Positions 26,991 to 64,000 of a stretch of DNA of 64,000 bases are shown here, one piece after another. Positions within the stretch are counted from its first letter, which is position 1, and the number at the start of each line of letters is the position of its first letter. The stretch is from the NCBI GenBank assembly GCA_001466705.2, contig LATX02000211.1:1426001-1490000 (forward strand), given 5' to 3'. This stretch comes from Moniliophthora roreri. Its lineage: Eukaryota > Basidiomycota > Agaricomycetes > Agaricales > Marasmiaceae. The position numbers were made by a program, and so were the translations under genes. The notes under the pieces were generated by a model. That model was not told where the DNA came from. It searched no databases and was given only the letters and a program-made list of their open reading frames with translations.

Positions 26991-27090
26991 CAACAGGTTA
27001 TGGGCCCCATTGCCTAAACCACTGCATCAGAATATGGTCCACATGAGAAAATTGAACATTGGCTCACCTAAACCTACATTGGCTCCATCA

Positions 27091-28150
27091 TGACGTCTGT
27101 CAATACCCCAAGCAACTATCTAAGCATTACCCAACTGCCAGATGAGGAGAAGTTTAATGGTGAGAACTATGTCTCCTGAAAGGAGAACATACTCTGTCAT
27201 GCCAAACTGAAGGGCCTACACCTATACTGGCAGGGAGAAATAACAATCCCAGTTCCCCCCATCATGATCACTGTCAAGGATGAGGACAGTAATACAACAC
27301 TGACATCCCCATCAATCACACCGACTCCGATCAATGACTGCTGCCCCAATCACCTCAAATATGAGCAACAGGAAGCGGTTGCCTTCAACATGCTGTGGGA
27401 CAATATTTGAAACCCCCAGCTCAATGGGCTTCTCAGCCAGTGGGAAGACCTCAGTGGAACTATAGCTGTGGATCAATATTGAGTACCACACAATCAGCTG
27501 CCTTACCTGCAAGTTGAAGGAGGAAAAATGGTGGGAAATGCAATATGAAGACTTCAGGGGACTGGTTATAGGTGAGAACAGTTACTACAAGAAGTGGAAG
27601 GTATTGAAGAAGGAGGCTGAGGATGCAGGGGTTATTGTTACTGAGGGGCTCTCAATTACAGTGTTTGTTGATTTCTTCCCATTCATGCTTGAATGAATCC
27701 CAGCAACCAGCTTCTGTCTATCTGAAAACAACCTTTGTATTGCTGCTGCAAAGCTCCAGGAACACTATTGCCTCATTACCAAAGACAAGCCTGGCCAGCA
27801 CTCCTCAAAAGTCACAGCTCTTCATGTGCGAATCAAAGAGCTCAAAGAAGCAAATGCAGCACTCACCACTAACAGGCAATGCAAGGGACTGTGTAACCCC
27901 AATTTGAAATGCTCGAATACCAAGTGTGGGAAGGTTGAACACCTGATTGATGATTGTTTTGAAGAGGGAGGTGGTAAACAGAGCCAGTATCCTGATTGGT
28001 AGAAGGGGAAAAAGTGGGCTGCACTTCCTTCTGCCAATACCTCAAATCACTATGTGATGACTGCCAGGCTCATCGACACCCTGACTGTCATGGAATTGAA
28101 TCCAAAGGATAAAAGCCACATTCTCGCAGACTCCAGAGCCTCGGCATATA
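27091..28150 (+). pseudogene. copia C1 Gag and start of protease
   Basis: From ATG 27091: MTSVNTPSNYLSITQLPDEE, KFNGENYV, then a UBN2-like copia capsid region with several stops and frame changes. Near 27900 a knuckle reads C-SNTK-C-GKVE-H-LIDD-C (CX4CX4HX4C). About 28120-28150 gives ILADSRASAYK, the position of the aspartic protease DSGAS motif with Gly changed to Arg. Homology stops about 28150, where the inverted copia fragment begins. Confidence 0.75.
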
Positions 28151-41589: not shown

Positions 41590-42306
41590 GCAATCACTGA
41601 AGGAATTTACATAGAATTGCTTTGTGTCATCCAATACACTACTTGATGTCCACTCTGGCAGTACAGCAGATCCAAACTTGGGGTATAAATGGATACTATG
41701 TCTGAATGCCATGACAGGAACAATAGTAGAGTCCTGATAACCTTTGGAGTTGAATGAGGATCTGATTTTGTACAACCCATGTGGTCCCTTAGGAGACTGA
41801 GCAAACTGCATGAACCACTCCACATATGCAAGATGCTGGGGCACATGACTCTGCTGGTCAATGGTGAACAGCTGCTCCAGTAGCCATGAAGGAAGTGAAA
41901 AGATAACTTGGACTTGAGCCACTCTGTAACCTAATCACAAAGAGATCAGTATATTTGTACAAAGCATCAAAATAAGTAGTACCATGTACCTGCTATACCC
42001 AATGCCTTTCCCTCTTTCTCATCCACCAAAGTAGTGTCAAATCAGCCAGACACCTGGTTCCTTCTCTTGTTTGTATGAGAGGGATTGACATGGACACTAT
42101 TAACAATGACAGTCCCACTTGCATTGGAGTTGTACATATTGGGTGTTGTCCACTTGACTCAATGCCAGACAGGAACTCATGCAAACAAGATGTGTGTGTT
42201 CTGGGCTGTCTGTTCCAGTCCTCAACCTTCAAGCTGAGGATTGCATACTTGAGCAACATAGCAGGCTAGTGCATGACAGAAATCAGAAGCCCCATAGTCA
42301 GAGGCC
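41590..42306 (-). pseudogene. Plavaka transposase, C-terminal part (piece 2 of 3)
   Basis: Minus strand from 42306: DYGASDFCHALACYV, then VPVWHxVKW, VHVNPSHTNKRRNQ, FDTTLVDEKEGKALGIAG, an intron of about 60 bp (about 41932-41991, GT...TTAG), then YRVAQVQVIFSLP, LAYVEWFMQF, HGLYKI, IVPVMAFRHSIHLYPKFG and SVLDDTKQFYVNSF. These are the C-terminal hallmarks of Plavaka transposases of Agaricomycetes. A few TGA/TAG stops are inside. The copia element cuts its right end in transcription order, and the 16.9 kb KDZ element cuts its left. Confidence 0.85.
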
Positions 42307-42556
42307 CACCTATAGTGCCCAGGTAAACCAGCATAGTAGGAGGCATGGTCCAGGTGGTTTCTGCCCACTGATGAGAACTTTTTCTGCATCATTTCTCTGT
42401 ATGTGAATATCTCTTTCTTATTTTCTCAAATATGCTAATATCTTCCATCCTCCAGCATACAACTCCAACTCCCTCCAGCTAGTTCTCCCTCCTTCCACTT
42501 TGGGAAGGGTCCATGTTTCTCTTTCCTTACTGGGCAAAAAATACTTGAACCAAAAT
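42307..42556. repeat. Left terminal inverted repeat of the KDZ element
   Basis: Pairs with 58999-59248 reversed. Several mismatches are TG opposite CA (for example positions about 42328 and 42345), the signature of CpG decay on opposite strands, so the original repeats were more alike. Outer limit exact; inner limit approximate. Confidence 0.88.
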
Positions 42557-44129
42557 CATGCCATGGTCAGCAGTCTTCATTGTCAATGGCGACAAGTATG
42601 CAGACATGGTCAAATTTCTCGCCTTCTATGACAATGAACCATATACTAGCCTCAAGATAAGTCTTCCAATAATATTCATCTTAGTCATTTTCACATTTTG
42701 CCTGACCATTTGAGCAACAAAGTCAGCAAATGGTGCCTTGATCAGCCTTGAGGGTTGAAGAGGTATGCTCTTGTCATAAAAACTTAGAACATATCTATTT
42801 CTTCCTGCTGTCTACAAAGTAATCAAGTATTCACAGCTCCATAGTATGCCAGTCTAGGCTTAGAGTGACCACCAGCATCCCTTACACTGCCTCCAGTGTC
42901 ATCACTCCTATTCTCAGGCTCTTTATGGCTACTAATGGCTCTCTTTCCAGCATGACCTCTTAATGCACCCCTTTCATCTCCCCCTTGACTCTTCTTCTTC
43001 TGCTTGAGAGATTGATTAAGCAGTGGGTTCAGACCCACAGCTGGCTTCCTTTTTTGCTTTATTCTGGAAGACTCAATGTCATCGCCTTGGCCTTTGTTAT
43101 CACTGTTAGAACCTGGGTTGGGATTGGAAGGACCAGTGTTAGGATCAGAAGGACCTGAGTTCAAGTTGATGGCAGCATGGCATGAGCAGCAAGGGCAGCT
43201 TCAGTTTTGGCAATAATGTGAGGATCAAGGACAGAGCTTGGCAGAGTATGAGGAGGCTCTGGTGTCTGGCAAGGAGATTCTGGCATTTGGTGAGCTGGAA
43301 GATCAGAGGATTGACAAGGTGAAGCAGGACTGGCCATAGGGGACCTTGATGCCATTGTGTTCAGATCCTGTCTATTGTTGTGTTTATCGACATTGCATGG
43401 TGGTCTGGTCTGCCAACTGCCTCTTCCTCCAGTTCTTCCACTTTGCCCTCCACCTCAACCAACTCTTCCACTTCCATAAGGGGGTGCAGTAGACAAAGAG
43501 CTCAGAGATCTACAAGCAGCACCTCTCTTGGACTTTCCACCTCTAGGCCCTCTATCAGCACTATGATCAGATTGAATGCAGTGACCATTAGGATGACATG
43601 CAACAGTGTCATCAGTTTCCTGCAGCTGAGGAGGACAGAGATTGAGGTTCTCCAGGTATGCTGTCTTCTAGGCAGTCTACTCTTCATCTGACATGCGGCA
43701 AAAATCAGCATTCTCCCTTCTTGACCATCTGCAGAGTCTTTTCAAGAGGTGGAATAGCACTGCTGACCTTACTGAGGTTTTCAATCTTTCCCAGTGGCCA
43801 TTTTTTGAGAACCACATGATATTTCAGGGTTACTGCAGTATCAAGGTTTCTGTAGAATATTCATTTTGGGGCTCTATCACCAACAGCGGCTTCTATAAGT
43901 AGATTAGTAGAGTACAGATGTGTAGGAGCTTTGAAAAAACTGACAGAAGGATTTCTGCAGCTTGTCTTGAATTTGGGTCTTCAGCCAATTCACATGTTCA
44001 ACAACAGTCATATCAGCAGCCATATCTAATGCAAGGTAAAGGGATGTCAATTGTACAGTTTGGGGATGGACTCACTGGCAATGTCACATCCAGCCACTGC
44101 AAAGGCCTCAAGCTTTCCAGCCACCCAGT

Positions 44130-45897
44130 AATTTGTCTAAGATAAGACCAGTGGAGAACTACCCAAAAGATAACCTCCAAAGGTCTAAGTCAGTTTGTTG
44201 TGCAAGTGTGGATTGATTTGATCAGAGTTGCCGCACTTAGAACACCAACAAAACTCTTAGCTAGGTTGATTCTCTTTTATTGAACTGTTCTACTTTGAAG
44301 TGTTCACCTCCAAAGAAGTATAGATGGATTTAAAATGGGTTTATTTCACAAACACACACAAAACACAAATAACACAGTGCACAAAGCACAAACACAAAAG
44401 CTACAGTCTTGTACAAAGACTCAATAGCTGATATAGTCTGACTCTATAGAGTTCAAGACTTCTTTAAGACAACTACAGCACACAGCATACTGGAAAAGGT
44501 CCTAGACCAATTTCTACAAAGAGTTCAGCACACCTCTTGCTAAGACTCTAAGTGTGTCACTACCTGATACCCAACATAGGCCACACTCCAAGTGCCCAAG
44601 GCTCCTTCTTGGTGTAAAGTGTCTCTTAGAAAAGTGCTACAATGCACTCAAAATGTTACTCTTATCTCTTACAATGCAAGTTCATTATCAGATGTCTATC
44701 TCTCTGGAGTCACTCAGGACCAATCTCCAGGGCCTGAAATGAGGAAGCAAAACTGGAATGGCACACAAAATTATACACCAAACAAACTCATCATGTATTC
44801 ACAATCAGACACTATGGACAAAGGGTTCTTTTGAGATAGTTTCCCAAAGAATTTAGTCAACTGAAAATGTTTATATAGTACAGATAGATTTGATATGAAA
44901 AAGACAGTCTTAAAATTATATGCTTTGCTTTTATACTTTTTTTGTCCAAATTTTATAAAAATTAGATTAAAATCTTGATACTTTTCTATTAATTTTAGCT
45001 AAGAGGGAATTATCAAATATTCTAGTAGTTTTTAGGCACATTTAGCACAAATATTTTATATGTTAAAGTTTTGTTTTTTCCTACTGTTTTGCAACTGTTT
45101 TAGGTGTACTAAATTGGCATATGGTAATTTGATTAAGTTTTACTTCTGTTTTCCCAGAACCAAAAAATCTGGATTTTTGGCCCAGTTTGGTCTGGATTTC
45201 ACACACTTTTGATGTACAGAAAAACGCAATAACTTGGGCACATTTTAATACTATTTTCAGTGTAAATAATATAGTATATATTCCTATAATATTGCATTAA
45301 GGAAATGTTTTATTAATATAGAATAATTTACAATAAGTTTAGAGCAAATATTGCCCAGAAGAATGTATTAGTTTTTAGCAATATTTCTCAAATATTTTAG
45401 TAATCTCCAAAGGGACCTTTTGTCTGTAGTGAGAGGGGGCAGAGTTACTTGAGTATATATGAATATCTAGCTGTTCTTATATACTGTCCAAGGAATATTT
45501 CTATAGGAAAACGTAAATAATGTCTGATAATTCAGGAAAATAATAAATGAGTGACTGAGATGCTAAAAGAAGGAATATTTGGATGTCATGGAGTCTGGCC
45601 ACTAGGGTATCTGACTGTATCTGCATGAGTATCTATGTCTCCAGGTGTTCTGGACTCTATAATTTGTATTTTCTCTTTTCTAAGTCAGGTATCTACAAGT
45701 GGATGGTTGTATCTGTCCCATTTCTTACAGCATTTCCCTTTCTAGCATCCACACATCAGCAGAGACCTAGATGCCAAAGTTTCTGAGAGTGGAACACACT
45801 GTTACTGTTCCTATCTTCTTTGGCAATGCACTTTCAGTCTTAGTTAGGACTTCATATGCATTAGATATTCTTTGTATGTCTTGTTGTGTCTGTCCAT
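44130..45897. repeat. LTR copy (family T) in the HMG-like gene
   Basis: Starts 'taatttgtctaagataag' and is directly repeated at 55650-56808 with about 90 percent identity by eye. It includes a CACTA MITE (44810-45431) absent from the other copy. Exact LTR ends and TSD are unclear; the sequence up to about 46540 may belong to it. No internal retroelement genes adjoin, so probably a solo LTR. Confidence 0.7.
44810..45431. mobile_element. CACTA-ended MITE copy D (second family)
   Basis: 622 bp, starts CACTATGGACAAAGGGTTC, ends AAGGGACCTTTTGTCTGTAGTG. TSD AGA (44807-44809, 45432-45434). The other LTR copy has the empty site 'acaatc-aga-gggggcag' at 56334-56350, with a single AGA. Termini resemble copies A-C but the interior is unrelated. 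Confidence 0.93.
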
Positions 45898-48800
45898 TAA
45901 GTAACTTCAGTCCTACAAAAGTAGTCTTCTAGCTTCTGAGGTTACTTCTGCACTTAGTTATGTTATTTCTTATGTTTTTGCTGCTGTTGAACTCTTTCTT
46001 AAGAGATTGTCTGCTTTGACTCTGATTCATATGTTGACTTCAGAGGAGGATCATTCTTTGATCATTCCTGTTCTAAGACATCTTTCTGTTTTGATGTCTC
46101 TTTTAAGTACTTCTGTACTGTTTGACTGTGTGTTGCACCTTGCAGATGTTATAGAAGGTTGAAATAAAAATAAAATCCCATTGATAGCACTTTGAGGGCT
46201 TGGTTAACTAGCCAATGTGTTCATTGGGCCATAGTTAGGTCTCCTACAGGTTTCAGGAGTGATCTGCTTTGGATCTGATACATAGATAGGTCAGAAAGTA
46301 CAGCTTAGACACCTCTGTATAGCATATTATATAGCTTTTTGTACTTTCCAATGCACTATAGCTTCTCTAAGGCAATGACTAGCAGACTGGGCTCACTCTA
46401 GTCCTTATTACCCATTATCTTGTGTCATATTAAAGTGTTCTGATCCAAAAGTAATGTAAAAAGAATAAAATTGGGTCTTTCCTAGGTTCACCATATTACC
46501 ACTTTGAATCCCATCCTCTCTTTATTGTGAATAGCATGTAGTTATTGAGCTGTGTTAGTGAAGAACCAATGTGGATCCATATAGTTGTTGTGGGTGTTTC
46601 TCACTGCAACTAACATAGCATCAAGGCCTGCTCTTAGAGAAAGCGATTCAAGCTTTAAAACAGAGTAAGTCTGGTGAACTTATTTATTTGTCTATCCACC
46701 TACCATGTTCTCAACATTGGCTAGAGTGTTGGCAATGTCTAGTGCATGCCTATGACTATTAGGGCATTGTGCATTCTTCTGGCAGTCCTTCTTGTTCAGT
46801 TGTTCATACTCCTTTACAAGCACCTCCTTTTCAAGGTCAGTAAGCTTCTTATACTTGCCTTTGAACTGTTGAGTGATCTCTATAAGGGCAAGTGGTGTTC
46901 CAGCTGGATGCAGGCTGTCAGGACCAAAAAGGCACAAGATTGTGAACAGACTCACCCTTATGGAGTTCACATGATTTCAGCCACTTGTATGCATTCCAAG
47001 GGTTAGTCTTTATGGTAGCTCACACAAGCTTGATGCCTCCTTGGAAGAGCATGTCAAGGAAGTAACAAGGCTTCTTCTTGAAGTCAACAGCCAGTTGGTT
47101 CATGGTAGCATGGATCTGTGCAACCCACTTTTGCATTGCTGCTTGCATCCTCTGACGCTCAGTTGCTGCATCCTCACTGGCCTTCTGGTGTTGCACATAT
47201 GGAACTCAAGCTTGCTTCTTGCATTCAGCATGTCACATGCAAGAGCATATGAAATGGCAGGCAAGTGTTAGACCCTGGTATCAAACTATGATTAGACTGA
47301 GGCTGGAAAGAAACAATAACTATTTACAGACCTACTTGTGAATGATGTCAGAACATGCAGTTGAAATCTTTATATTTCATACCTTTAGCACATTCTTCAT
47401 CTTTGAGCAACTTGAAAGCAATCCATAGGGTTATGTGCCCTGGGCCATGAGCAGGCAGGATGTGATTGTGCTCAAACCAATAAAGAATGAAGTTGATGAG
47501 TTCATCTTTGCTAGACTCAACAAGCTTCTGGTACTTGTAGGGTTCCATTAGTGAAATCTTTCCTTGGGCCAATGTCTCTAAGGCTTTTCTATCACATTTT
47601 CTCAGACTGTTATAACAATTTTCCAATATATTACAATTTGAGTACATATGACAAGACTGTTTGTTGTTGAGATGTAGCTAAAATCAAGCTTCCCAACAAT
47701 GCATAAATAATTTCAAAATGAAATTTATTTCTCCTTCAGGCAAAGCCAGAAATGCCCCTCTCATCAAGTCCAAAAACCTGTCAATTGTTGAAGAGGAGCA
47801 GTAAAAGCCCACAACAACTCTGATGGCCTCCCCAGAGTACCCATGATCCAGGAAATATTCATGTTGCAAGTCGCTCAGAAGACTCATTGTGTCTGCTTGA
47901 GCATCTCAGAGATGAGAAGGACCTGCAGCAGGCTGTGGGGGATCCTGAGATAGAGTTGGTGTTATACCAGACCTATCAAATGCTGATACCCATGACAAAT
48001 TGCCTTCTAGATTGGCTGATACAATATGAGTGTTAAACCTATGGCAACAAAAATTACAGCTGACATACATGCTACTTGTGGGTCCAGGACCTTGGACTTT
48101 GGCAGTTGGAGTTTGGAAGCCAGAGCAGACAAATTGAGCTTCTCTGGCAACAGCGGCACCCACTTTGTAGCCAGAGACTTTCCTTTTTCCTTGGCCACAG
48201 GTGTCTGAGGCAATCTTGAAGAAAGCAAAGGTTGTGACAGTGTCAACAGTTGGGAAGTAGGAAGAGGCAGAGGCATAGTTGGATCTCGAGTTGGAGTGGG
48301 TAGAGAAACAGGTTCTGAGTCAACAAAGTCTTTGTGGGTTCTACCTTGGCTGATCATGTAGTATAAGGCACCATTAAAGGAAGAAAAGGTGTTCATCAAA
48401 GGCAGACACCTCAGTCATGCATGAGAGTCTCTCCAAATGCAACAGGCTTGTCCACTGAGAGAACTTAATTTCAGCACTGTTTAGTGATAGAGAAGAAGTC
48501 ACTCACTGATCGACAAAGATACCAGTCTCTCATGCAAGCAACATGGCATAGAAGTGGAAATTGAGGGTGTCCATCACAGCTGACATGTTCTGGAAGTTGG
48601 CTGATTGCCTAATTTCATTCCAAATCTGATCAGTATTGGAGATTTGATACACAGAGTTCATGACACCTTGGAGCACTTCAAATATGAATCAGGCATGCTC
48701 AATGGGTGCTTGTATGACAAGTGGAAATCATCTGCCAGATCTTCTGCCTGGAACAAAGGGTCTGGATAAAAAGGCAGCAATCCATAAGGTGTCAATGAAA

Positions 48801-49165
48801 ATATAAGGAGAAACAACTTACAGTGAAGTATACATGCCTGTGTCAAGCCTTGGCTGTTTAGATACAGTCAATTGAGCTTGATAAAGGCCAAGTGCTGAAG
48901 GCTATAGAAACACATAAGTGAATTTGGGGTTTCCAGAGGTATGGCTGTCATTGCTCATTGTAAGAAAGAGTAAGGAGCAATTTAATGGGCTTGGGTGAAG
49001 TTGGTGGCCATATGTGGTGGAAAAGGTTGTGCCGAGGAATTGTAGAAAAATCATCAACCTGTTTTGGAGGTCACAGGCCATGGCCTCATGAGTCATATTG
49101 TGTCACAACCTTTCTCACACCCTTTCTCTCAACTATTGCATTGTGCTGTAGATCAGAGCATATAG

Positions 49166-50851
49166 ATGCATGCAGCATTTTCTTTTTTTTTCATTATTCT
49201 TCACTCTGCATATACTCAAAGCCCTGGGAATATGTGTTTTATTCTTTTCCCCTCATCTGTGCATACTCAAAGCCCCAGGAATAACATAAACACTTACAGA
49301 GGACCTTTGAAAGTATGTGTTTGCTCTTCTGATGGACTCAAGCTAACAGCCCCATTAGGTCAGAGGCCCCAAATGAACCTCAGAAAGCCAGTCTCTTACC
49401 ATCTCCTGGCTAATGTCAACTTCAAGTTGCTGGTACAACACACTTTTGAAAACGAACAAGATGAACCTTCTATTGCTTTTACTGCCTCTTTGCTACTAAG
49501 CACTGTACCCTCTAGCTCAGAACTTCAAACATCCGAACTCCTGAGTGATGACATTATCACATCTCCACTTTCTATCAGCCATCAGACAGTCAACACCAAA
49601 TTGGGTCTGAACATGCCTAACAACCTTTCTAGACCTAGTAGAGTACCTGGAAAGGCCCAGAAAAGGAGCAAATCTCAGAGTAAGAAGAACTGTCAGAAAA
49701 AACATGCTACAGCCAAGGAGAAGTCCACTCCTGAAGCTTACCTGCTCCCTCCAATGAAAAGGCCATGCATGCAAGAGGCTATTGTTCTTGATGTAACTTT
49801 AGACCAGTTCTGGGCCTCAGGGAACAGTTTTACTAGCTATCATACTGAATACATCAGCTGCTGGTACTCCCTTGAGGATGTCGCTGGGCCAAACTCTGTG
49901 CTCAAGTTCAAGAAAGTTCCTTTGACTGGTCTGACCTCTCTTCTAGGTCAGACATAGTTCTCATCACACGAGATGGCTATAAGATCACACATGGCATCAG
50001 CATCGCTGATGAGAAGACTTGGCCTGCAGCTGCTACCAGACTTGCAGACAAGCTAGATGCTGAGAGGTCCAACACCAGCTTCACAGGAAAGCTCTTAAGC
50101 AACTGTCATGGCAACTTCTACACACTTTTGGCCAGCATCTCCTGTGATCGGAGCATGAAGGTGCTATTTTTCATTGCCTTCTGCCCCAACACATCTGACC
50201 ACATCTGCATTTTAGAAGCCTAACATTGTTGGCCAAGCCAATGCAAAGAATGCTGCTGTCATCAAAAGACTTCTTCAGAATACAGATGCTGTTCAGCTTG
50301 CAGGCTTCCAATCATTGGCATTCTGCTGCTGCCAGCCCATACTTTATTAGTGGTATGCTGAAAACTGCACTTGTCTCAAGAGTTGGTACCCCAAGCTCTT
50401 GTGGAACTTCAAGAACAGCATATTTGCTCACATTACCTTCAATTTTGGGCCTCAGACCATCTGCAAGGAGCATACTGATTATGGGAATTGGGCAGATAGT
50501 CCATGTGCAGTCACCACTTTGTCTCTGTCAGTTGGTGGGTACGACTATTGAAAAGGAGGCCACCTTATATTCTGGGATCTCCATGTTGTGATTGAATTTC
50601 CTCCTGAGACAACAATTCTGCTCTTTTCAGCCATTCTCTAACATTCCAATGTTGTGATTGGAGCAGAAGAGTGACACTTCTCCTTCACACAATACACTGC
50701 TGGCAGTCTGTTCCAATGGGTGGAGCATGGGTTTCATTCAGAAGGAGATTTTTGGGCATCACTCAATGCCAACAAGGTGAAGGCTGAGAAGGTGAAGGAC
50801 AAAGCTTACTGGAGAAACTCATTTGCTAATTTTGCCAAATTCACACCATAA
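49166..50851 (+). pseudogene. TET/JBP-family 2-oxoglutarate/Fe(II) dioxygenase relic
   Basis: Fungal TET/JBP enzymes oxidise 5-methylcytosine in DNA. Basic N-terminal tail (KAQKRSKSQSKKN), then VLDVTLDQFWASG. After a 1-nt frame change near 49921 come DWSDL, DIVLITRDGYKITHG, SNCHGNFYTL, a 55-bp GT-AG intron (50161-50215), KNAAVIKRLLQNTD, QLAGFQS and FNFGPQT. HTD (about 50471) is the first iron-binding pair; HSN (about 50642) supplies the distal His; SFTQYTAGSLFQWVEHGF closes the core. KGGHLIFWDLHVVIEFPP lies between. In-frame stops at 50348, 50549, 50639 and 50672 kill it; the last replaces the residue next to the usual 2OG-binding Arg. The N-terminal start is uncertain. Only three CpGs remain in 49981-50820. 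Confidence 0.85.
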
Positions 50852-51693
50852 TGCTCTACATTTGCTCATTTGCATCCTCCTCTTGTTGTACATACACCTA
50901 CTTTTTACCTTATGACATCTTACTCTTTACTGAGCACATTCTTGTCATTTTTATATGTTGGACTTGATGCAAGAATTGTAAATGGCTTTGAGGGACATGC
51001 CTTTTGAACAACTTCACAGCATCAGAAGAGGTGTATATAGTGAGTTTCAAGTGAAATAGATCATTAGAAAAAATTATTGCTTGAGGGGAGCATTAAAAAC
51101 CACCTGATGGCAGCATTGATGGCAAGTTGATTTGCACTTCTTGGTCAACCAACACATTCCAGTCCTACTCAAGCCCACTTAGCAACACCCTAATTTCTCA
51201 CAAATACTTACTGTTACAACTGTATGAATAGATCAGAAGAGGTATTATGCCAGGATAAGTGCCTATGAACAAGAGGTGAGTAAAAGTCTAATAGCATGGA
51301 GAGTTTCAAACTGAACAACATTTTCTTTCAGACAACCATTGCAATTGTGCTCTGACTCTTACAGTGGTATCCTTAGCTTCAAACCATCATGGCACTGTTG
51401 GTCATTAAAGAACAAACATTGGCTATGCTGCTATATGTGTGTTATCATTCAGGTGTGGAGAGTTTCAAAGGTACAGTAACAGTTGTATTAATACTGATTT
51501 TTTTCACCCTCTGGGCTGGGACAGATGTACCAAATACATGTTGTATCCAAGAACTGTACACCTTTGGCACATATGATAATAAAGGCTAGCATTACAGGTG
51601 TGTTTCATTTGAAGCAGCCAGCTCAGGCTTCACTCCTTATTTGGAACTGACAACTTGGGGTAGTTTTTGAGAGGCTCATTCTCTGTTTCATCC
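50852..51693. other. Spacer after the TET/JBP relic
   Basis: No recognisable coding region. A short AT-rich stretch, then a segment with open fragments (51389-51589) that lack known motifs. Probably promoter or 5' region of the next gene. Confidence 0.4.
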
Positions 51694-52509
51694 AGATGGC
51701 TCCACCAATCTTCAATCATGACTATTGCTCCAGAAACCAAAACCCAAGACTGTCTTCACTATTTTCTGATGATCTGTTACCTTCCTCTTCTCCAGAGGCC
51801 AACTGGACTGAATACTACAAGAAAAAACATCAGATATCTGCAGCTGTGCCTCTTTCTCTGAAAGCAGGTTGTCAATTCCTCACCTTGCTGATGTGTCCTG
51901 TCTCTGTCTCTCCTCTTCCATGGCAGCCACATTGAAAACCCTCACCACCATTGCCTGCATTTTCAGACTTCTCAGAACAGCCTTCTATGCCTTGTCTACC
52001 TGAGAAGAGTGTCAAAAAGTTGAAGACACACCCCTCACTAGGTAAGAAGGCAGCATTATTCAACAAAATGGTCTTCACATCTGTTTTGTTAGCTTCACAT
52101 TGCTCAACAAGCTTTGCATGCCAATTTCTGGGAACAGCATTGCATTAGAGAGAAGTAGGGTTCTTGAGGCTGGCAATCAAGCAGCAGAAGTGCAAGAACA
52201 GGGTGCAGAGAGGAGAGGGGAATTGAGATGCCAGCGAGCACAAGAATATGCATGGAAATACTACCAATGCAACTGGGCAGTACTTCAAAAAAGGGCCTGA
52301 GAGAACAAGCAAAGGTTAGTCTTCTGCTTAGAGGTCATACAACATGCTGTTTATTACTACTCCTACAGATGCAAGCAGCTTATTCAATCTCTTCCAGAGG
52401 AAGAACATAGGGAGGTGTCTGAACAGTTACAGAATCGGGAGAACAAATACAAAGCATGCTGGTGGAGCAAAAATTGGCCTTACTTGGCACTTGCAGAATC
52501 ACAATAGTG
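51694..52509 (+). pseudogene. Unrecognised multi-exon gene inside the KDZ element
   Basis: ATG at 51696 (MAPPIFNHDYCSRNQN, PEANWTEYYKKKH). Plausible GT-AG introns are 51868-51926 and 52041-52089. The third segment is highly charged and coiled-coil-like: ERSRVLEAGNQAAEVQEQG, RAQEYAWKYYQCNWAVLQKRA (then TGA), and after an intron (52316-52369) LIQSLPEEEHREVSEQLQN and KYKACWWSKNWPYL, stop 52507. The 'YA.KYY..N...LQKRA' pattern recalls basic coiled-coil segments in other fungal transposon proteins, but I cannot name the family. Confidence 0.4.
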
Positions 52510-53365
52510 TCTAAGGGTGTGTAATTCTTTATTCCAACCCATGTGGTTTGCTCACTGTGTCATCCAGAAAAAAAATCAGACCAATCCTATTATATAGCTC
52601 CATAGCTACAGACTGGCATTGTACCTATTAAAATAGTATTTGTTTTGACTTCCACAGCAACTATGCCTTGCCAAGTTGGTCCCAATCCATCTATGCAAAC
52701 CAAAACTACCTTCTCCTTTAACCTGTAGGTGGACACAGAGCCTGAGGACAACAGTGCATCTGACTTTGAGTCAGATAGCAAAGGCAAAGACAAAGAAGGC
52801 AATGATAAGAAGACAGAGATGCATGTGAGCAGTTGTTTGCCATTTTCTTTGCATATAAGTACAACTTACTCTTGATCTTTAGACTGCATCTGAGAAACAA
52901 AAGCCAGACCTTATATTTTGAAGATAACAAAGACAGCCAATGTGTGAGGAGAATGATTTTGAAAGAATGGTTGCTCCATGACATCCAGAGTTTAATCATG
53001 GGTGCATAGCCCTTTCTCAGTAAAGCTTATGTGTTAACTGACCTCTTGACAAGGCATTTGGCACCTTCCTGTAGCAATGCCTCTATATGATCCTGTTCTC
53101 TACAGTATCTATTGTCTACGACCTTCTGACATTGACCAACACCGAGCCAACAGGCTTGCTACAGCTACCCCCCAGACCTGTAAAATTGTAGAGGAGTTGA
53201 TAGGCTTTTAAATTGATCTCAAGGCTGAGCTAACAAGGAGAGAACATTTGAGAGAGGCTGCAGATAAATGGAGGAGTAAGCAATGCAGGCTTGAGAATGC
53301 TTAGTATGTTTATTATACTGAGAACACATAATAAAATCAACTAGAACTACTGTACAATGTGTTTG
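52510..53365. other. Weakly coding stretch, no family recognised
   Basis: Contains an acidic open fragment (plus strand, about 52729-52830: EPEDNSASDFESDSKGKDKEG) and another near 53090-53280 (IDQHRANRLATATPQTCKIVEELIGF). These could be further exons of the preceding gene. No complete structure can be drawn. Confidence 0.3.
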
Positions 53366-54030
53366 CTACTGTAGAGTAAGGTCTTCTATAAATGTTACTA
53401 TGTTTTCATCATTCCACCCTGACCATTCCTTCTTATGTATCTTGATGTCATTGTCAGCAGGATCAAACTTCTCATCCTCAATAGTTATTCCAATAATCTT
53501 GGTTGCCCAGATTGGAAGAGAAAGCTCTGATGATTGTTGATGTCTGATTTGCTCACTGGGTAAAAGGCTTCCTGTGGAGCCACATGATTGGTAAATAAAG
53601 GTCATTATCAGCATGTGAAGCACTGCACCAGTAAAACCATTCAGGTGACTTGTTTGTACCAAGTGCTCTGCAATCTGAGTGTGAATAGCTAGACAGCACT
53701 TTTGCTGTCTAGATAGCTCAGCACTCAGCTCAGAGTCAGTAAGGCTGGTTTGCTGGATAGCAGACTCATAATCCTCATTATTGTCAAGGATGAACATCAC
53801 CAGGTGCTTTATCTCCACATTCAGGCACTCAATTTTCTTCTTTGCATGCCAGAGCTGGAAGTGCATATGCATAAAATTTGTCCAGCACTTGTAGATGGTA
53901 CAGCCCTTCCTATCATAGGCTGCCCATGTTTTCTTCAGACATTCTGGTTCATAGTAAACATTGATGTCCCTTGGCTAAGAGGTTTCAGAGTTGCAAGAGC
54001 ACCCAGCAAGCCTGTCATTTGCCTTTTTAA
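53366..54030 (-). pseudogene. KDZ transposase, C-terminal part
   Basis: Minus strand: YYEPECLKKTWAAYDRKG, FQLWHAKKKIECLNVEIKHL, then LTDSELSAELSRQQKC and HLNGFTGAV, ending about 53366. This is the C-terminal helical region of KDZ transposases, in which 'NVEI.RL' is followed by two helices and a 'GF.G' turn. The tail PADNDIKIHKKEWSGWND is not recognised. The catalytic core that should lie before it is missing, replaced by an LTR-gag fragment. Confidence 0.7.
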
Positions 54031-54054
54031 GTTCTCAATTTCTTGAGTCTGTGC

Positions 54055-55464
54055 TCATATAGTACATTGGTGTGCATCTATGGTTGCTGCTACACCCAAG
54101 TTATACATATCACTATCCTGTTCCTCTTTCTTAGGAAACAGTGATTGTACTGTCTCTTCTTGTTTTATGGCTGGCAGTGTTGCAACCTGGCTAGGAGCTT
54201 GTCCTTGTGCTGCTTTCACCTGCACATTCGTCAAAGAAATAGGAATCCCCATAGAAAAGGCCATACCTGGTATAATAGGTTGCATCTCCTCAGGAATTGC
54301 TGACTGATGTGAATTCAGGAAATAAATGTTCTCCGAATTGGTTGACATCACTATCTCAGCCTGCTCAATGACATCGTTGAGTTCCCAAGGATCTTGTCGT
54401 CTTCTAGGGTCTTCTTTTCCCTTATCTAGCTTATTGAGCATGAACAGCTCCATCTGTTGTTGAACATGCATCTTGAATGTGGATTCAAAGGTGCTCAAAT
54501 ATGTTTGTACCACTGCATGGTTTGAAAGGAGAGCTGGAGGCTTAAGAAGCTTTTTGACTTTGAGTAGGAATGCTCAATTGTACTTCTTTAGTTTCTCCAG
54601 TCCTCCAAATCTGATGTACTGACTGTGCAACACTATCTGGTACAATTTGTCCATCAATCCATTGTCTGTATCCACTGAATCAGGGAATACCTTAAATAAT
54701 AGCTTTTTAAAGTCTTCCCAGGAGTTGCCTTTAGCTTCACTACTCTCTTGTAATTCTGTGCGTAGTTTATAGGACATCTTCTGCATTGCCGAATAGATCT
54801 TTGAGGCATCCTCTGTCAAACCAGCCATCTTAAATTGGATTTGAAGATCATCAAGCCATGCTTGTAAGGTATCTGGTTCATCTTCATTAAATGACTTTAC
54901 TGTATGCAGAATTTTTCTAACATTTCCTTCTGCCAACTTATCCAGCTGATCTTGCGGTAGGTCATCCCATCAGAAATGTTGCGTGTTTCCTGTAGCCAGC
55001 ATTTCATTGTTATTCTGGGTTTGTCTGGTTTCTACTTCATCTTCAAATATTTGAAGTAAGTTAAATTCTTCAGCTAAGACCTCTACTCTAGATAACTGAG
55101 CATTTTGGTCTGTAATTAAGGTAGCAACAGTAATAACGTTTCTACCAGGTGTGGATGGGGTAGTACTTCTTCTAGTAGATGTCATTGAAGTACTTGCTTG
55201 AGAATCAATATGAACAAGTCCACTTCTATTGAATTCAACTGGATCTGTTAACGAAACAGCTCCTGTCACAGTTGCTGATCTTGTAGCTCTGACTGGAGCT
55301 GTTGGATTCAATCTAGCAGTCTTTTTCTTTGATTCTTTCTGCTTTTTAGATCTTGATGAACTTTCTGCTACTGGAGTAGGTGGAAATGCACCAGGAATCT
55401 GTGTTTCGGGTTCAGACACCATTGACAATTCTGAATCCCTAATTCTTTTGCTAATTATGGACAA
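54055..55464 (-). pseudogene. LTR-retrotransposon Gag, one frame with two TGA stops
   Basis: 470 codons in a single frame from ATG 55464, broken only by TGA at 54970 and 54574. Signs: nuclear-type basic segment RSKKQKESKKKTARLNP, a capsid-like block ADLQIQFKMAGLTED-type (DEPDTLQAWLDDLQIQF, MSYKLRTELQESSEAK, SWEDFKKLLFKVFPDS), and Gln/Pro-rich C-terminus. No knuckle seen. It follows a 5' LTR at 55650-56808; pol is absent. Family unassigned among fungal LTR elements. Confidence 0.7.
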
Positions 55465-55649
55465 CTAGCAGTTAAGATAGAGCCTTACTGACAATTAGTC
55501 TATCCTTTTTATGACAGGTTGAAGTTCAAACTTGTCAAAATTATCTGGATGTGTTTTCTAAGAAGTATATACTCCTCAAAAAGATTGTTTCTCAATAGCT
55601 TAAAGCTTAAATTGGTATTCTAGATCCACCCCTCACAGTAGGCTCCAGA

Positions 55650-56808
55650 TAATTTGTCTAAGATAAGACTAATGGAAAACTACCCAAAAGATAACCTCCA
55701 AAAGTCTAACTCAGGTTGTTGTGAAAGTGTAGATTGGCATGATCAGAGTTGCCACACTTAGAATGCCAACAAAACTCTTAGCTAGGTTGATTCATTCTTA
55801 TTTGAAGCAATCTACTTCAAGGTGTTCACCTCCAGAGGAGTATATATGGGTTTTAAAAAGGGTTTTTATATCACAAACACACACACACAAAACACAAAGA
55901 ACACAGTGCACAAAGCACAAACACAAGAGCTACAGCTCTGTACAAAGACTCGATAGCCAATATAGTCTGACCCTATGGAGTTCAAGACTTCTTTAAGACA
56001 ACTACAGTACACAGTGTACTGGAAAAGGTCCTAGACCAATTTCTACAAAGAGCTCAATGCAGGCACACCTCTTGCTAAGACTCTAAGTGCATCAAACCTG
56101 ATACCCAATACAGGCCACACTTCAAGTGCCCAAGGCTCCTTCTTGGTGTAAAGTGTCTTTTAGAAAAGTGCTATAACACACTCAAGATGTTACTCTTATC
56201 TCTTATGACGCAAGTTCGTTATCAGATGTCTATCTCTCTGGAGTCACTCAGGACCAATCTCCAAGGCCTGAAGTGAGGAAGCAAAACTGGAATGGCACAC
56301 AAATTTATACACTAACAAACTCATCATGTATTCACAATCAGAGGGGGCAGAGTTACTTGAGTATGTATGAATATCTAGCTATCCTTATATATGGTCCATA
56401 GAATATATCTACAGAAAATTATAAATAAGGTCCAATAATTCAGGAAATGATAAATGAGTGACTGAGATACTAAAAGAGGGAATATTCAGATGTCACAGAG
56501 TCTGGCCACTAGGGTATCAGACCATATCCATGCAGGTATCTATGTTTCCAGGTGTTCTGGACTCTATAATTTGTATTTTCTCTTTTCTAAGTCAGGTATC
56601 TATGAGCAGATGGCTGTATCTGTCCTGTTTCTTTACAGCATTTCTCTTTCTAGTATCTGCACATCAGCAGAGGTCTAGATGCCAAAGCTTCCTAGGTCAG
56701 AACACACTGTTACTGTTCCTATCTCCTTCAACAATGCATGCTCAGTCTTATTTAGGACTTCTTATGCATTAGATATTCTTCTTATGTCTCATTGTATCTG
56801 TCTATAGG
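55650..56808 (-). repeat. LTR copy (family T), 5' LTR of the gag fragment
   Basis: Direct repeat of 44130-45897 without MITE D. On the minus strand its end is followed by TC and TGGAGCCTACTGTGAGG, a plausible tRNA primer-binding site, then the gag ATG. The right border (about 56808) abuts KDZ coding sequence. Confidence 0.75.
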
Positions 56809-56814
56809 TAGTGG

Positions 56815-57740
56815 ATGGCCTTTGGAAGTGATTTCCTTCTTTCCGAGAGGACTTTGTACCCAGTTAGTTTATCTCATATTGTTTAGCCACCATTTTGTTC
56901 ATTTCATTGACATTGAGCCATGCAATATCTTTATCCTCCTCGTCTTGTATGGACATCAATAGATCCAAGCTGCATGATGGATCTGAGTTGTGTAATGGGA
57001 GTGGGTCTGTTGCATTTGGGGGGGATGATGCATTCATTGCGTCAGAAGATCTGGATTTAGCCTGATGAGCATTAGTGATCCTGACTATAACAATCTAGCA
57101 GAACCACATACCTTGTCTGGATCCTGTGACTTCTGGACTTCATGTTTGAATTGATCAACAAATTCTTCCTCAATCAACCACTGGTCAGTAAGTGTGTGAT
57201 TGTCCTCTCAGGTTTTGCCAGCTCTGAACACAGGATCAACCTGTTTTTGAGAATTGTTGCCATCAATAGATAGTAGAATTGATGGATCTAGTGCTGGTTC
57301 ATCTTCAAGCTTGTATGCATAAGGTGGGCATATGGTTGTTATGAATAATTGCTCAGAGGTTTGATCTAATGTGGCAAGGCTGAGTTGTTGAACCCCATGT
57401 AGAATGGCCAGATACTTACCATAGGCAACCTGGAGTTGATCTTCTAGTTGCAGTTGTTGTGCTAGCTGCAACTGTGAATTAGCTAGATGCAGACTGTAGG
57501 AAGCCTTTATGCTGTGTAAATGCTGAAGTGTTTGTGCCAGTCTGTCAATGCTGAACTTGGGGCAGACCCAATGTATTTGCCTGTAAATCTCAAAGAGTGA
57601 TAATAGGAAGGCTAAACTTGGTCTATTTGGACTTGCACCAATGTAACCATGCTGCATCAGTGCTTTGTTAACTGTTTGGGTGTTGCTCAGATGAAAGAAA
57701 TTGTGTTTCCCATTAGCTGCCTTTACTATCAGCCATTAGA
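56815..57740 (-). pseudogene. KDZ transposase, N-terminal/central part
   Basis: Minus strand: TQTVNKALMQHGYIGASPNRPSL, AFLLSLFEIYRQIHWVCPKFSIDRL, TLQHLHSIKASYSLHL, YGKYLAILHGVQQL, CPPYAYKLEDEPALDPSILLSIDGNNSQKQVDPV. This is the defining N-terminal region of fungal KDZ transposases: 'G..G.sP..p..A....LE.yR', then 'l...H', then 'CP.C.YkLe.Ep.L....l...DGN.SlKR'. A TGA follows at 57207. The downstream part to 56815 is weakly preserved and is cut by the LTR. First catalytic Asp is probably not included. Confidence 0.82.
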
Positions 57741-58998
57741 AAAGTGTCAGAGGGAGCCAGACACACCCATGAAGTCTATAGTTGTCAATGGCCATTGTTC
57801 TGCTCCATTGTCATTTTGAGAAGGCTGCTTGGCCTTGAACAAGAGATATGACCAGACTAGCAGCAGCCTCTGGTCTTGCCATAAGTCTACAATCTTCTGT
57901 ATGTGGTTAGAATGTATCCTGTCATCTGCATGCCATCTAAGACTAGATGAGAATCATTTAAAGGATGTGCTGTTTCTTTACATACTGACTGTGTTCAAGA
58001 AGGCTGTTGAGTATAGAGTTGAAGGAATACTCCCTGCCTGCATGGCTGTTAATTGCACCTTCTTCACCTGGTGGAAAAATTGGCATAGAGAATGTATCAA
58101 CATCCATGAGGTCCTCCAGATCTGAATCTACACTACTGAAAAAGGTTAAGTTGATTTCTGAGGTATCTGTGCTGTTAATGTGGCCTTAGAGGTTGGAAGG
58201 ACCAGCTGAGCTCAAAGCATTGATGTTAGCCGATGCATCTGCAACATATTCCTCATGCTGCTTGAAACTCATTGCTAATAGGTTGATTGAATGAAAAGAA
58301 TAGAGGAGAAAACTATTAAACATACCCCCTAGAATTGTGTCATAGTGGTAGCACTGTTTATACTGTTCCTCTCTGGTATGATTGACATTCTGACATTGCT
58401 GGCTTAAGGGCCCTATGAGACCCAGCCTGCCCCCAGCATGAATCATGATCTTGTTGGACATAGCTCTTCTAGTTTTAAGCTAGGCATGATGGAGAATTGA
58501 GCAAAGAGTGAATGTATTTGATAATATAATCAGGCTATATCCAGCTTGTAGGCTGTACATGAAAAGTCTCATGTGCAATGTGAAAATGTGTATCGATGTA
58601 GACATAGTAGGATCAAGGATTAGAAGCTGTGTAATAGGTGAAAATTTCAGTACATGAAGCATAGTAAGAAGAAAGATCAATGCACTGACTGGAATTGACA
58701 TCTGCCTCCTCCTCTGTTATGGTATCCACAGAACTGTTGTCCCCAATGACTGGCACTGACATAGAAAGACTAGATGAACATTCTTCCCAAGGGCAACCTG
58801 AATCACCAGAATGTGGGCTCTCAAGGCCTTGGCTATCTTCTCATGTTATTTAATCCCTGTTGAACAGTAAAGAGGTCAGATTGAACATTGAATGAAAGAA
58901 TTGAGAGAGAATGTACCAAAGGCATCTTGGTATCTAAGTACCTCTGAGCTCTCCATCTCACAAGTTCTTGTTGTTGTCATTGCAGACAAGGTGAAACA
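57741..58998 (-). other. Upstream exons or 5' region of the KDZ gene, tentative
   Basis: Minus-strand open fragment 58186-58461 (MSNKIMIHAGGRLGLIGPLSQQ, then MSFKQHEEYVADASANINALSSAGPSN) with a possible intron near 58280-58330. I recognise no domain. The rest to the right TIR (58999) shows no coding signal. Confidence 0.35.
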
Positions 58999-59248
58999 TA
59001 GTGTGGTTCGAATGTTTTTCCCCAGTAAGGAGAGAGGAATGTGGATGATTCCAAAAGAGGAAGAAAGGGGGACTCACTGGAGGGACTTGAAGTCATGTGC
59101 AGGAGGAGAAGAAATATTAGTGTATTTGAGGAAATCAGAGATAGTTATTCACATACAGGGAAAAGATGCAGAAAAAGTTCTCATCAGTGGGCAGAAACCA
59201 TCTGGACTGTGCCTTCTACTATGCCAGTTTACCTGGGCACTATAGGTG
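58999..59248. repeat. Right terminal inverted repeat of the KDZ element
   Basis: Inverse of 42307-42556; the outermost 22 bases match perfectly and about 80 percent match overall by eye. Followed by TSD AGAGGCC (59249-59255). Confidence 0.88.
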
Positions 59249-61041
59249 AGAGGCCAGGCAGGTGAACTTGACCAATTTGCATGTTGAACACTGTGTCATC
59301 TTCAGAGTACATTCAAAAACAATTCCAGGTGTGATATCATACATAAGAGAGGGCAGACAGTCATTCAACATAGTGTTGCATGGGCTCAGGCCCAGAGCTG
59401 TGGGCCAGCCTGAGCCAGCCCTGGTTGAGCCTGAGCTGAGCCAGGCCCTCTGCACAGCTTGAGTAGGGCTTAAGGCCTGGCTCTAACTTTTGTGGGCTGT
59501 GGGCCTGAGGCTTGGGCCATGGCTTTGGGAGATCATAGATGAAGCCAAAATTCTCATGAATAAAGATTTGCTGCTGTTGACAGATCTGTAGTGCTGCCTT
59601 AATGATGACTTTGTTAAGGAACTTCATAATACCTCTATTTCTACCACCATCTTTCACTCTCTTGAACCTCTTTCAAGCAGAGTACACTAGGCTGATGCTT
59701 AGTGCCTAAATAACCTGCACTCAATGACACAATATGGACATCATATTGAGCCTCATGTCTTTCATGGGATATAGATATAGGTAGTATTAATGTGTAGTCA
59801 ACCTATTCAATCTATTTTACTTGCAGTACTCATGAGCCATGGCCCAAGCCTAAGCCAGCCCTCCTTTACAGCCCAAGGCCCAGCTCACAATTTGGATGGG
59901 CCTGAGCCCATGCAACACTAATTCAACATGACTAACTTGATATATTTCTTGTATTGTCAAACTCCTGCTATTCAAGCCAAGTTACCATCTGGGGTAATTC
60001 ATCACAATGGTTTGTAGAACAGAATGCATCTTTAGTAAGGTCAATGTGAAGGTGTTCAGTGTATTCAGTGTTGAAGTACTGAAGTTTTCAAAGTGATGTG
60101 CATAGTGTTGACAGGCATGCAACTTTAGGGTCTTATTGAACCCATTGCAGGCTCCAGCCTCAACAAAGGCCTTCTTGTGGTTGTAAAAGCATATCAATGC
60201 TTTCTTCATAAGAGAGAGGCATGAAGCAGGTACTGAGCTAAGTAGATGAAGCCAAGCATTCCACAAACAGCTGCACACAGTTTCTATAATAATGTGCCAT
60301 TTGGCAAGCACAAGTCAATCACCAGACTCAGTAAAATGTGACACATCTTCTTGTGCTTGGCCTCTGTAACACAACTCAGACCAGAGATTCCCTTTATGAA
60401 AACACAAATATTGTGGTTGGGTAGAAAGCAGTGACAGCAAGCATCAATCTCTGGTGCTCCATATATTTTGATTAACCAGGCAACAAGATGCTTAACAAGG
60501 CCCTGATAGAGCTGGTGGAGAATATTGGAAGTGGTGGATTGATAAATGTTCACATAAGGGAGGCCTTTCCAAAATGGCTTAGTAATGGGCTTCATACTGG
60601 CTTCCTTGCATGCTTGATAGAAAGCAGTTGGGCCCTCTGAGGGTGTCTCTAGTACTCTGAGGGCATTGGCAAGGTCAAGGAAGTTATAATTAGTGTTATC
60701 TTTGCCTATTTCATTCTTGCCAGCAGGGCAGAAACCTGGACATTAATAGTATTTCACATTTATAGCAAGACCCTGCTCTGGGTAGTCTGCAACATAAACA
60801 GCAAATATAGGATGGCTATGCTGCATGATGCTCTTGCCATCAACAACTGTCATCCCACTGACACTAGGAGCATGGATGGGAAGTGTAATATGATGCATGC
60901 AGGCATGGAAAAGGTTGCTAAGGGCTCTGCAGTGAGCAGCTTTGTTGTTGATGTGTTTGAGGGCTGAAGTAGGAAGATATATAAGGAGCACATAAGCACT
61001 CTGTGAAGGCTTTCAACAAATTTCCTTTGAGATGTTTCCAA
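59249..61041 (-). pseudogene. Plavaka transposase, central part (piece 1 of 3)
   Basis: Minus strand from about 61041: LFHACMHHITLPIHAP, GMTVVDGKSIMQHSHPIFAVYVADYPEQGL, KPFWKGLPYVNIYQSTTSNILHQLYQGL (the family's 'PFW..LP..nIf.s.tPDiLHQLhkG' block), then FIKGISGLS and CFYNHKKAFVEAG. After a frameshift near 60060 it continues with TEYTEHLHIDLTKDAF and MVTWLE. A hAT MITE (59371-59920) lies next, then LVKFTCLAS to the KDZ-element border. The N-terminal part, including any zinc finger, is missing to the right of about 61.05 kb. Known: Plavaka is a fungal DNA-transposon group expanded in basidiomycetes. Confidence 0.88.
59371..59920. mobile_element. hAT-type MITE in the Plavaka gene
   Basis: 550 bp. 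Ends TAGTGTTGCATGGGCTCAGG and its exact inverse; 24 bp match perfectly. 8-bp TSD ATTCAACA (59363-59370, 59921-59928). TAGTG ends with 8-bp TSD fit the hAT superfamily. The interior has many 'ggccc/gggcc/ctgagcc' words near both ends, like hAT subterminal repeats. No transposase. Confidence 0.93.
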
Positions 61042-62055: not shown

Positions 62056-64000
62056 CTAATGCGATGGTGTCTTTGGTAATACTGGTCTCTCCTTCCCTTG
62101 TGATTGGGCTGGGATATCCTTGGGTGGTTTGACGCGGAATTCAGACATGATGCAGATATGGCTGTGGGAGATGTACATGCTTATCAGTATTATACCAAGA
62201 ACAGGGCGTGTAGAGACGCACTCTGATGGGAAATGCGCATTCGGGAACCCAACCACTTTCTCCAGGTATCCTCCATCAATAGGACCCAACACCGAGTTGA
62301 CTGCTAGATTCCCGCCCGAGTACCAGATATAATCTAGTACACCTTGGAAAGACGGTGTAAAGTTCGTCAACGGCAGTAACTCTCCCTTTCCACCGCCTGC
62401 TTCCTTTGCTTTCGCTAACGAAGGCGGGGGATAAGGGTTCCCGTTGGGTGTTAGCTTATGTTTTGTTTGTGAGGAGTCCTTCTCGACCTATGTACACATT
62501 GTCAACATAAAATAGATGAAGGTAGGGAAATGGCTCACCATAGACCCGCTACCAACACAATACGCACTCTTCAATCCCAACCTGTGTCTCAAACCTTCAC
62601 TCGTATATTTCCCGTACGTATGACCCATGAAATCCGCATGATCCTTGGGTAAATACCCCGTCGAGAGGAACTCATATACTCCGCTTTCCGGTACGCTGTT
62701 CAAGTCAGCTGCGAGAATGATCGGGATCTTGGTTCCGTCGCTATACGTCGGAGGTGCCGGCGAATCCAGATCTTTGCGAGGTGGCAACTTGGCAAACCGG
62801 TCGGCGGCTTGTTCAATCTCCTCCACCAGCAAAGCAACTTGAACGAGTTTAACATCGCTATAATCTGGATTCCAAGTGATATGTGCGTTGGCAATGATCA
62901 CACGCGTTCCTGTATGCCGATGTTCGAAAAGGCATATGGAACCGATATTGTCCTTACCCAAAACGCGGTTAAACATATCTTCAGTCTTCTTGAAGTCACT
63001 GCGTTGCATGGCATGGGTACTGAATTCAATGAGGTGAGATTCGATAAGGGTGTAGGTGGATGAACGGTAAAAGGTGGCACAGCCGTCGACGGTGGAGCGG
63101 TCTGAGGAGGAAGGCATGTTCCTGGCGCGGGATTTTTGAAAGTAGATGCCAGAGTATGATTTGGGCGTTAGGCGGGAGGTAAAGAACTAGGTGTCGACTT
63201 GGTCGATATTTACGGCGTTGATGAGAATATTTATGAAACGCACCTCATCATACTGCTTTCCTGAAACCTCCTGCAAACAAAGAAAATCGGCGTTATAACC
63301 CAAAATCTCGTTCAAAATGAGCTCCTTCCTATAATCCCAATCCAATGCCCACTGAGGGGTGTAGCCATAAAGTCGCTCTGTAGCGTACTTTTCACAAAGG
63401 ATGTTATAGCATAACGCGCTCATTGTTTCGGGTTCTTCGTGCCCTCCAGGGTTGGGTGAGGCCGATAAGGCGATACTGGGATACAAAGCGGCTCGTTCTG
63501 CGGGAGAAAGAAGCGACTTTAGGATACGGGCCGGAGGAGGGGAAGGAACAGGGCATGAATCGCGGAGGTAGGCGATGAGTGCGGTGGTTCCCTTCTCCTG
63601 GACGATTTGCTTGAGCTGAGGATCTAATGGATTTCCTTCAACTCCCAAACATTGGAGTTGATGTAATGTGCCAAATTCAGGCGGAAGCGTTTGAAGTAGG
63701 TTATCAAAGACGTAGAACTCTTTGAGCGTGGTGAGCATGCCGATCTGTTTAGGTAGAGTGCGGAGTTGGTTTGCGGATAAATCGAGGAGTTCTAGGTGCT
63801 TGAGAGAGGCTATTTCCGGAGGAACGAGAGTGAGGGCATTGTGGTTGAGATAGAGATTACTGAGGAAGGAGAGTGACCATAATGAGGATGTGGATGGTAA
63901 GGATTTGAGAGCTACACCACCCATGTCGAGCGAGTGCCATGTATTGCTGGGTATTACAGCTTTGTTTGATGGACGAGGCGCCTCTGCGATGGGAGCTACG
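62056..64000 (-). CDS. CCR4: CCR4, catalytic deadenylase of the CCR4-NOT complex (5' end outside)
   Basis: Removes mRNA poly(A) tails in the cytoplasm. The minus-strand gene enters at the right edge. The first visible part is leucine-rich repeats: LSNLYLNHNALTLVPPEIASL, LELLDLSANQLRTLP, LKEFYVFDNLLQTLPPEFGTL (LRRs bind the NOT/CAF1 partners in yeast). Then the EEP nuclease: ALCYNILCEKYATERLYGYTP, FLCLQEVSGKQYDE (metal-binding Glu), DGCATFYR, ILAADLNSVPESGVYE (Asp, Asn) and the end FPSDHICIMSEF (Asp, His), where Asp is completed across an intron. Three introns are seen (about 63188-63242, about 62491-62541, about 62167-62212). Stop at 62056-62058. The N-terminal Gln-rich part lies beyond 64000. 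No lesions; CpG-rich. Confidence 0.95.

Follow-up and report, generated by a model that had tools for sequence, protein, structure and literature searches.

The window analyzed here, a 64,000-nt stretch of the Moniliophthora roreri genome (G000:C110:1426001-1490000; LATX02000211.1), contains between positions 42307 and 59248 what is very probably an old, immobile KDZ-type cut-and-paste DNA transposon, carrying a putative TET/JBP-like dioxygenase gene. The borders of this element are real, and the copy in the window, once a four-gene element, is now a dead relic, with sister units on other contigs. Genome searches covered the 59.4-Mb assembly of 154 contigs; labels such as C101, C83, and C77 denote contigs of this same assembly, and C68a and C68b are two separate units. 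Elements of this general kind have already been described; the present one has clear ends, long terminal inverted repeats (TIRs), and a recurring coiled-coil companion gene.

Borders of the element and its end family

The element is delimited by the following features, in which TSD stands for target site duplication:

42300..42306, no strand: left TSD AGAGGCC, 7 bp, from the sequence
42307..42552, + strand: left TIR with the tip CACCTATAGTGCCCAGG, from the alignment to the right end and from the genome-wide family
59004..59248, - strand: right TIR, from the alignment to the left end
59249..59255, no strand: right TSD AGAGGCC, from the sequence

An earlier interpretation made from the letters of the window alone (the sequence-only reading) had placed matching inverted ends at 42307 and 59248, and these are borne out: positions 42307-42552 and the reverse complement of 59004-59248 are 84.3% identical across 242 aligned bases, and 26 of the 38 mismatches in this pair are transitions. 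The AGAGGCC that it had noted on both flanks is likewise an exact 7-bp duplication, and not one of 8 bp, for which six mismatches arise. Its 16.9-kb element stands as a bounded unit, while that length proves to be made up in part of later insertions.

The ends exceed what chance would give. Used as a genome probe, the left TIR of the window gave 33 matches, its own two ends included, and the 20-base tip pattern CACCTATRGTNCCCAGGTAA, with at most three mismatches, gave 138 matches vs. 27 for the pattern read in reverse. Among the 100 of these 138 places that were listed, adjacent tips at most 30 kb apart pointed inward in 24 cases, outward in four, and the same way in ten. Ten two-ended units were inspected (the window, C101, C83, C69, C84, C68a, C100, C68b, C12, and C119). 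One-ended regions (C131, C122, C112, C44, and C76) were not counted as units, and C119, with one left and two right ends, was omitted from the TIR comparison and counted as a unit without a TSD. The 7-bp TSD is general for this end family: it is exact in five of the ten units (the window, C101, C83, C69, and C84) and has one mismatch in C100, while C68a has an exact duplication of 8 bp, so that the TSD is exact at 7 or 8 bp in 6/10. The TSDs of C68b and C12, with two and three mismatches, respectively, all of them transitions, look decayed, and no TSD was seen in C119 (one of the ten). A 213-bp stretch between two exact tips (G000:C1:2911593-2911805) is perhaps the smallest derivative of the family. 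The unit at 74770-83320 of G000:C69 also holds DNA that is 86-93% identical to window positions 5500-7770, which is another repeat.

Sister units and gene linkage

The unit at C101:110064-122819 is bounded by 319-bp TIRs (96.6% identity) and an exact 7-bp TSD, ACTTGTG, and encloses a coiled-coil gene (-), a dioxygenase gene (+), a third, small gene (+), and the KDZ transposase gene (-) in the order of the window; its match to the KDZ catalytic domain, PF18758, has E=1.6e-38. The unit at C83:214367-226670, with 214-bp TIRs and the exact 7-bp TSD TTGCGAA, holds a KDZ gene (PF18758, E=5.8e-43) together with the coiled-coil gene. In translated comparisons, the window is connected with C101 and C83 by a chain of matches that begins in the coiled-coil gene and runs as far as the KDZ N-terminus, a few weak pieces lying out of order. 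These two units support the proposal of the sequence-only reading that a single mobile unit with defined ends carries KDZ, TET/JBP-like, and further genes.

Beyond the two-ended units, tips were looked for at C77, C134, C8, and C99. The KDZ/TET locus on C77 ends in a tip of the end family at 28053, and a related tip, mismatched at two positions, lies at 168938 of C134. The order coiled-coil (-), dioxygenase (+), KDZ (-) is shared by the window, C101, C99, and C8, and appears flipped in C134. Linkage across the genome speaks for the same association: after merging, there are 17 TET-like and 47 PF18758 loci, and eight of the 17 TET-like loci lie at most 15 kb from PF18758 vs. 0.4 expected under uniform placing, a crude control that overstates the contrast because transposons cluster; ten of the 17, the window included, lie near any KDZ piece. 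Two interpretations were set aside in the course of the analysis. At C77, the long inverted repeats were rejected as TIRs, since the KDZ/TET core is flanked by retroelement pieces, and the view that the end family does not belong to KDZ, based on none of 67 KDZ matches lying within pairs of window-type TIRs, was reversed by the tip pattern, C83, and C101.

Gene content of the window unit

The window holds the remains of the same genes in the same order, as follows:

43717..48760, - strand: relic of the coiled-coil gene, split by a repeat (R), from translated matches to C83 and C101 and a genome search
49114..50842, + strand: broken gene of a putative TET/JBP-like 2-oxoglutarate/Fe(II) dioxygenase, with an HTD motif and, 57 residues downstream, a second His
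51651..52507, + strand: remains of the small third gene, similar to C77 and C8 and without a Pfam match
53369..53874, - strand: C-terminal part of the KDZ transposase; the open reading frame (ORF) matches KDZ loci from residue 33 onward
56885..58475, - strand: N-terminal part of the KDZ transposase, with a CxC1-like stretch at 57211-57735

The KDZ relic named in the sequence-only reading is thus present in its N- and C-terminal parts and lacks its catalytic core; the gap, between 53872 and 56885, now holds a second R copy along with a gag-like piece. The CxC1 match in the N-terminal ORF (E=3.7e-4, 21 bits) is under the curated cut-off of 26.9, and this ORF has homologs beside KDZ domains elsewhere in the genome. 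The coiled-coil gene was recovered by the genome search, with 15 matches including that of the query itself. The claim of an HMG-like gene was not upheld: the third-gene ORFs tried from the window, C77, C8, and C101 gave no HMG match in Pfam, although a divergent version could escape such a search.

The dioxygenase

In the window copy of the dioxygenase, HTD is followed 57 residues on by the second His, and the Arg position reads as a stop. Among seven copies compared, HxD is kept in five, the second His in six, and the Arg in five, and three (C77, C101, and C78) keep all of them; C136 was aligned and left out of this count, and its HxD region does not align. The residues of CcTet are His326, Asp328, His376, and Arg385, with spacings of 50 and 9 (PMC11040006), whereas here the first spacing is 57, or 53 in two copies, and the second about 10. 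Two PDB matches of the dioxygenase are to an unrelated antigen (E 0.05 and 0.1). A genome-wide search with the PF12851 profile gave no match and its positive control was likewise silent, hence this search is uninformative. A single-sequence fold of the dioxygenase fragment, with a mean predicted local distance difference test score (pLDDT) of 44.3, was too poor for structure comparison. Of the TET/JBP dioxygenase in the sequence-only reading there remains a broken gene with HTD and His, and we infer the TET/JBP label from this motif and the company of the gene, because a Pfam or PDB profile match is lacking.

CpG decay

The TIR pairs of the five young units (C101, C83, C100, C69, and C84) differ at 45 positions, of which 42 are transitions and 35 are of the CpG type. 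Transitions occur at 35 of 210 CpG bases in these TIRs vs. 7 of 549 other C/G bases (Fisher p=1.3e-14, a value that is too small because C100, C69, and C84 are close relatives, which makes their sites only partly independent). Among older units, differences of the CpG type number 1/38 in the window, 0/36 in C68b, 0/58 in C12, and 8/22 in C68a, and the TIRs of the window, C68b, and C12 have almost no CpG left. The observed/expected ratio of CpG is 0.07 in the window unit and 0.68 in the C101 unit, and reaches 0.78 and 0.91 in the pair of 4-kb blocks that spans 16-24 kb of the window and holds a dihydrouridine synthase gene. Over all 4-kb blocks of the window, those at 16-28 and 60-64 kb have ratios of 0.51-0.91, and the remainder have 0.02-0.36. 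The stops inside KDZ matches comprise 50 TGA, 24 TAG, and 18 TAA.

The pattern of TIR differences, CpG ratios, and stops fits decay of 5-methylcytosine and marks the window copy as old and dead. Hypermutation was not detected in Agaricomycotina according to PMC12730594, and a slow decay of methylated CpGs would not contradict that report.

Insertion site and later insertions

The flanks of the element include the following:

59256..60742, - strand: Plavaka transposase relic on the upstream side of the insertion, with PF18759 and a paralog on C45
41596..42299, - strand: presumed C-terminal continuation of Plavaka, with an open frame over the join and short, weak C45 matches

The Plavaka transposase domain PF18759 was found in the right flank at 60287-60742 (E=1.4e-17). 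The C45 paralog is a good match to this flank and matches the left one in short, weak pieces only. With the element and one TSD removed, a single reading frame crosses the join, as FTC followed directly by LASDYGASDF, and the joined peptide has no significant similarity to the C45 paralog (a score as high arose in 57 of 500 shuffles). An uninterrupted Plavaka copy was not found in the genome with either the joined peptide or the joined DNA. Insertion into a Plavaka gene, as the sequence-only reading had it, is supported by the domain on the right and by the open frame, and an uninterrupted target is not confirmed. Of the three border lines that were said to agree, the TIRs and the TSD hold, and the reading frame is the weaker; the firm evidence for insertion is the TSD.

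Several sequences entered the element later:

44126..46500, no strand: repeat R, about 1.75 kb without its nested miniature element, with sharp edges, inserted in the coiled-coil gene
44810..45431, no strand: CACTA-type miniature element within R, with the 3-bp TSD AGA, by comparison with the uninterrupted R copy at 55645-56890
53875..55464, - strand: gag-like retroelement piece, a later insertion (Ty3_capsid, E=0.0034, under the cut-off)
55645..56890, no strand: second, partial copy of R, 89% identical to 44125-44809 and 86% to 45432-45894

We take R to split the coiled-coil gene because positions 44086-44124 and 46548-46655 match neighboring parts of C101 and C83. Copies of R also occur in C12, C68b, C119, C122, C44, C77, and C8, that is, in several KDZ-type units; its edges are TAATTTGTC..CATATTA, and CTGA in C12 may be a 4-bp target duplication. 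Direct repeats inside the window were rejected as long terminal repeats, their edges fitting the independent repeat R, and the similarity of R to C8 was rejected as a TET fragment, the match sitting beyond the KDZ end. The edge peptide of the gag-like piece has 21 further matches in the genome, and the piece is perhaps a short gag-only retroelement.

Outside the element, a 962-bp stretch is repeated in tandem at 25220-27141 (99.9% identity), which may be recent or a matter of assembly, and inverted copies (98.5% identity) lie at 30400-31011 and 37018-37629 in retroelement-rich DNA. Positions 63187-63996 hold part of a host gene, presumably Ccr4-like, that encodes leucine-rich repeats and the beginning of an endonuclease/phosphatase domain.

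Relation to known systems

Associations of fungal KDZ, TET, and HMG genes in basidiomycetes were reportedly described by Iyer and colleagues in 2014. The window element is like those associations in having KDZ beside TET/JBP and additional genes, with HMG not found here. According to PMC12730594, it was unknown whether the genes of that study lay in complete transposons. In December 2025, Kyakuja transposons that carry TET and have 7-bp TSDs and CA..TG termini were described from Agaricomycetes (Kojima, 2025; PMC12730594). Judged by its 7-bp TSD and its CA..TG ends, the window element appears most like Kyakuja, with which it also shares the presence of KDZ and a TET/JBP gene in one unit. Two Kyakuja families of Laccaria bicolor are without TIRs (PMC12730594), whereas the TIRs here measure 214-319 bp, a contrast with those two families.

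The elements KDZ1-KDZ3 of Cryptococcus neoformans are similar in combining KDZ with long TIRs; they carry CxC1, measure about 9-11 kb with 139-241-bp TIRs, and have been proved mobile (PMC12810828). Unlike the units described here, their TSDs are of 8 bp (KDZ1) or 4-8 bp, and a TET gene is not mentioned in the available part of that article (PMC12810828). Zisupton likewise belongs to the KDZ superfamily and has TIRs, but its TSD is 8 bp (PMC12730594), a length seen here in C68a alone; the contrast with Zisupton drawn in the sequence-only reading holds for the window. TIR motifs of KDZ and Plavaka have been characterized in Marasmius oreades (PMC8290104), and the portion of PMC9674265 available gives nothing further on element ends.

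Proposed mechanism and alternative explanations

A full unit is about 12-13 kb long and consists of a TIR, the coiled-coil gene (-), the dioxygenase (+), the small gene (+), KDZ (-), and the second TIR. The KDZ transposase would recognize the 0.2-0.3-kb TIRs and insert the element with a 7-bp stagger, and the dioxygenase may oxidize 5-methylcytosine on the DNA of the element, thereby easing the silencing of the transposase gene. Gene-less copies that kept their tips would be moved in trans. The window copy landed in a Plavaka relic, lost nearly all of its CpGs, was broken up by later repeats, and lost its KDZ core.

Several observations weigh against reading the window element as a KDZ-kind transposon with its own dioxygenase. 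None of the 67 genome matches to PF18758 falls in the window, no TET-like dioxygenase was found in C83:214367-226670, C8 has no TIR tip in the stretch examined (its homology with C77 stops at a copy of R), and C99 has none in the single 801-base stretch inspected. Furthermore, seven of the ten two-ended units (C100, C68a, C68b, C69, C84, C119, and C12) have no PF18758 match, only C68b and the window have a TET-like match among the units other than C101 and C83, and the interiors of C100, C69, and C84 are alike among themselves and unlike the window beyond the TIR. Such units are what might be seen if the TIRs came from an unrelated transposon family, inside which a KDZ/TET segment was nested by chance. 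We consider this very improbable, given that C101 and C83 combine the same tip motif and exact TSDs with KDZ and the same neighbors, that C77 ends in a tip next to KDZ, and that chance nesting would need to recur with identical gene order; C101 largely refutes it. The sequence-only reading had stated beforehand that TIR homologs without TET and KDZ between them would refute it. Seven of the ten units do lack this pair (C68b lacking KDZ), C101 encloses both, and we read the two-ended units lacking KDZ/TET as derivatives.

That the two ends are an assembly chimera and not on one molecule is exceedingly improbable: the region is repeat-rich, but the TSD is exact, the gene order is like that of C101, and Plavaka sequence on the right side is accompanied by weak Plavaka matches on the left. 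It is less far-fetched, although still unlikely, that the unit is mobile and bounded and its dioxygenase does not demethylate DNA, being a passenger 2-oxoglutarate dioxygenase or acting on another base. The dioxygenase has no TET/JBP match in Pfam or among PDB sequences, and the metal and 2-oxoglutarate residues are all kept in only 3/7 copies (C77, C101, and C78). Against this, the spacings of HxD, the second His, and the Arg are near those of CcTet, an association of TET/JBP with Kyakuja has been published (PMC12730594), and the CpG-type decay amounts to a methylation-like pressure on the ends. A transposon of the KDZ kind with a TET/JBP-like dioxygenase is the interpretation that we favor, in view of the TIRs and exact TSD of the window, the units on C101 and C83, the tips at C77 and C134, the linkage of TET-like to PF18758 loci, the shared gene order, and the CpG-type decay between young TIRs.

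Significance

Methylation-type CpG decay acts on the ends of this family, and the exact ends, the 7-bp TSD, and the fixed gene order obtained from sister copies in one genome make movement, end recognition, and end methylation testable. The coiled-coil gene, of unknown role, is flagged as a traveling companion of KDZ. We suggest tentatively, as a possibility that is on balance doubtful, that this TET-bearing KDZ lineage, with its long TIRs and standing coiled-coil partner, may be a self-protecting system, in which the element's own dioxygenase would protect its methylated CpGs against decay and silencing, and gene-less, tip-bearing derivatives, in larger number, would exploit the transposase. 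If this is true, the CpG-type differences between young ends would be a scar record of that conflict.

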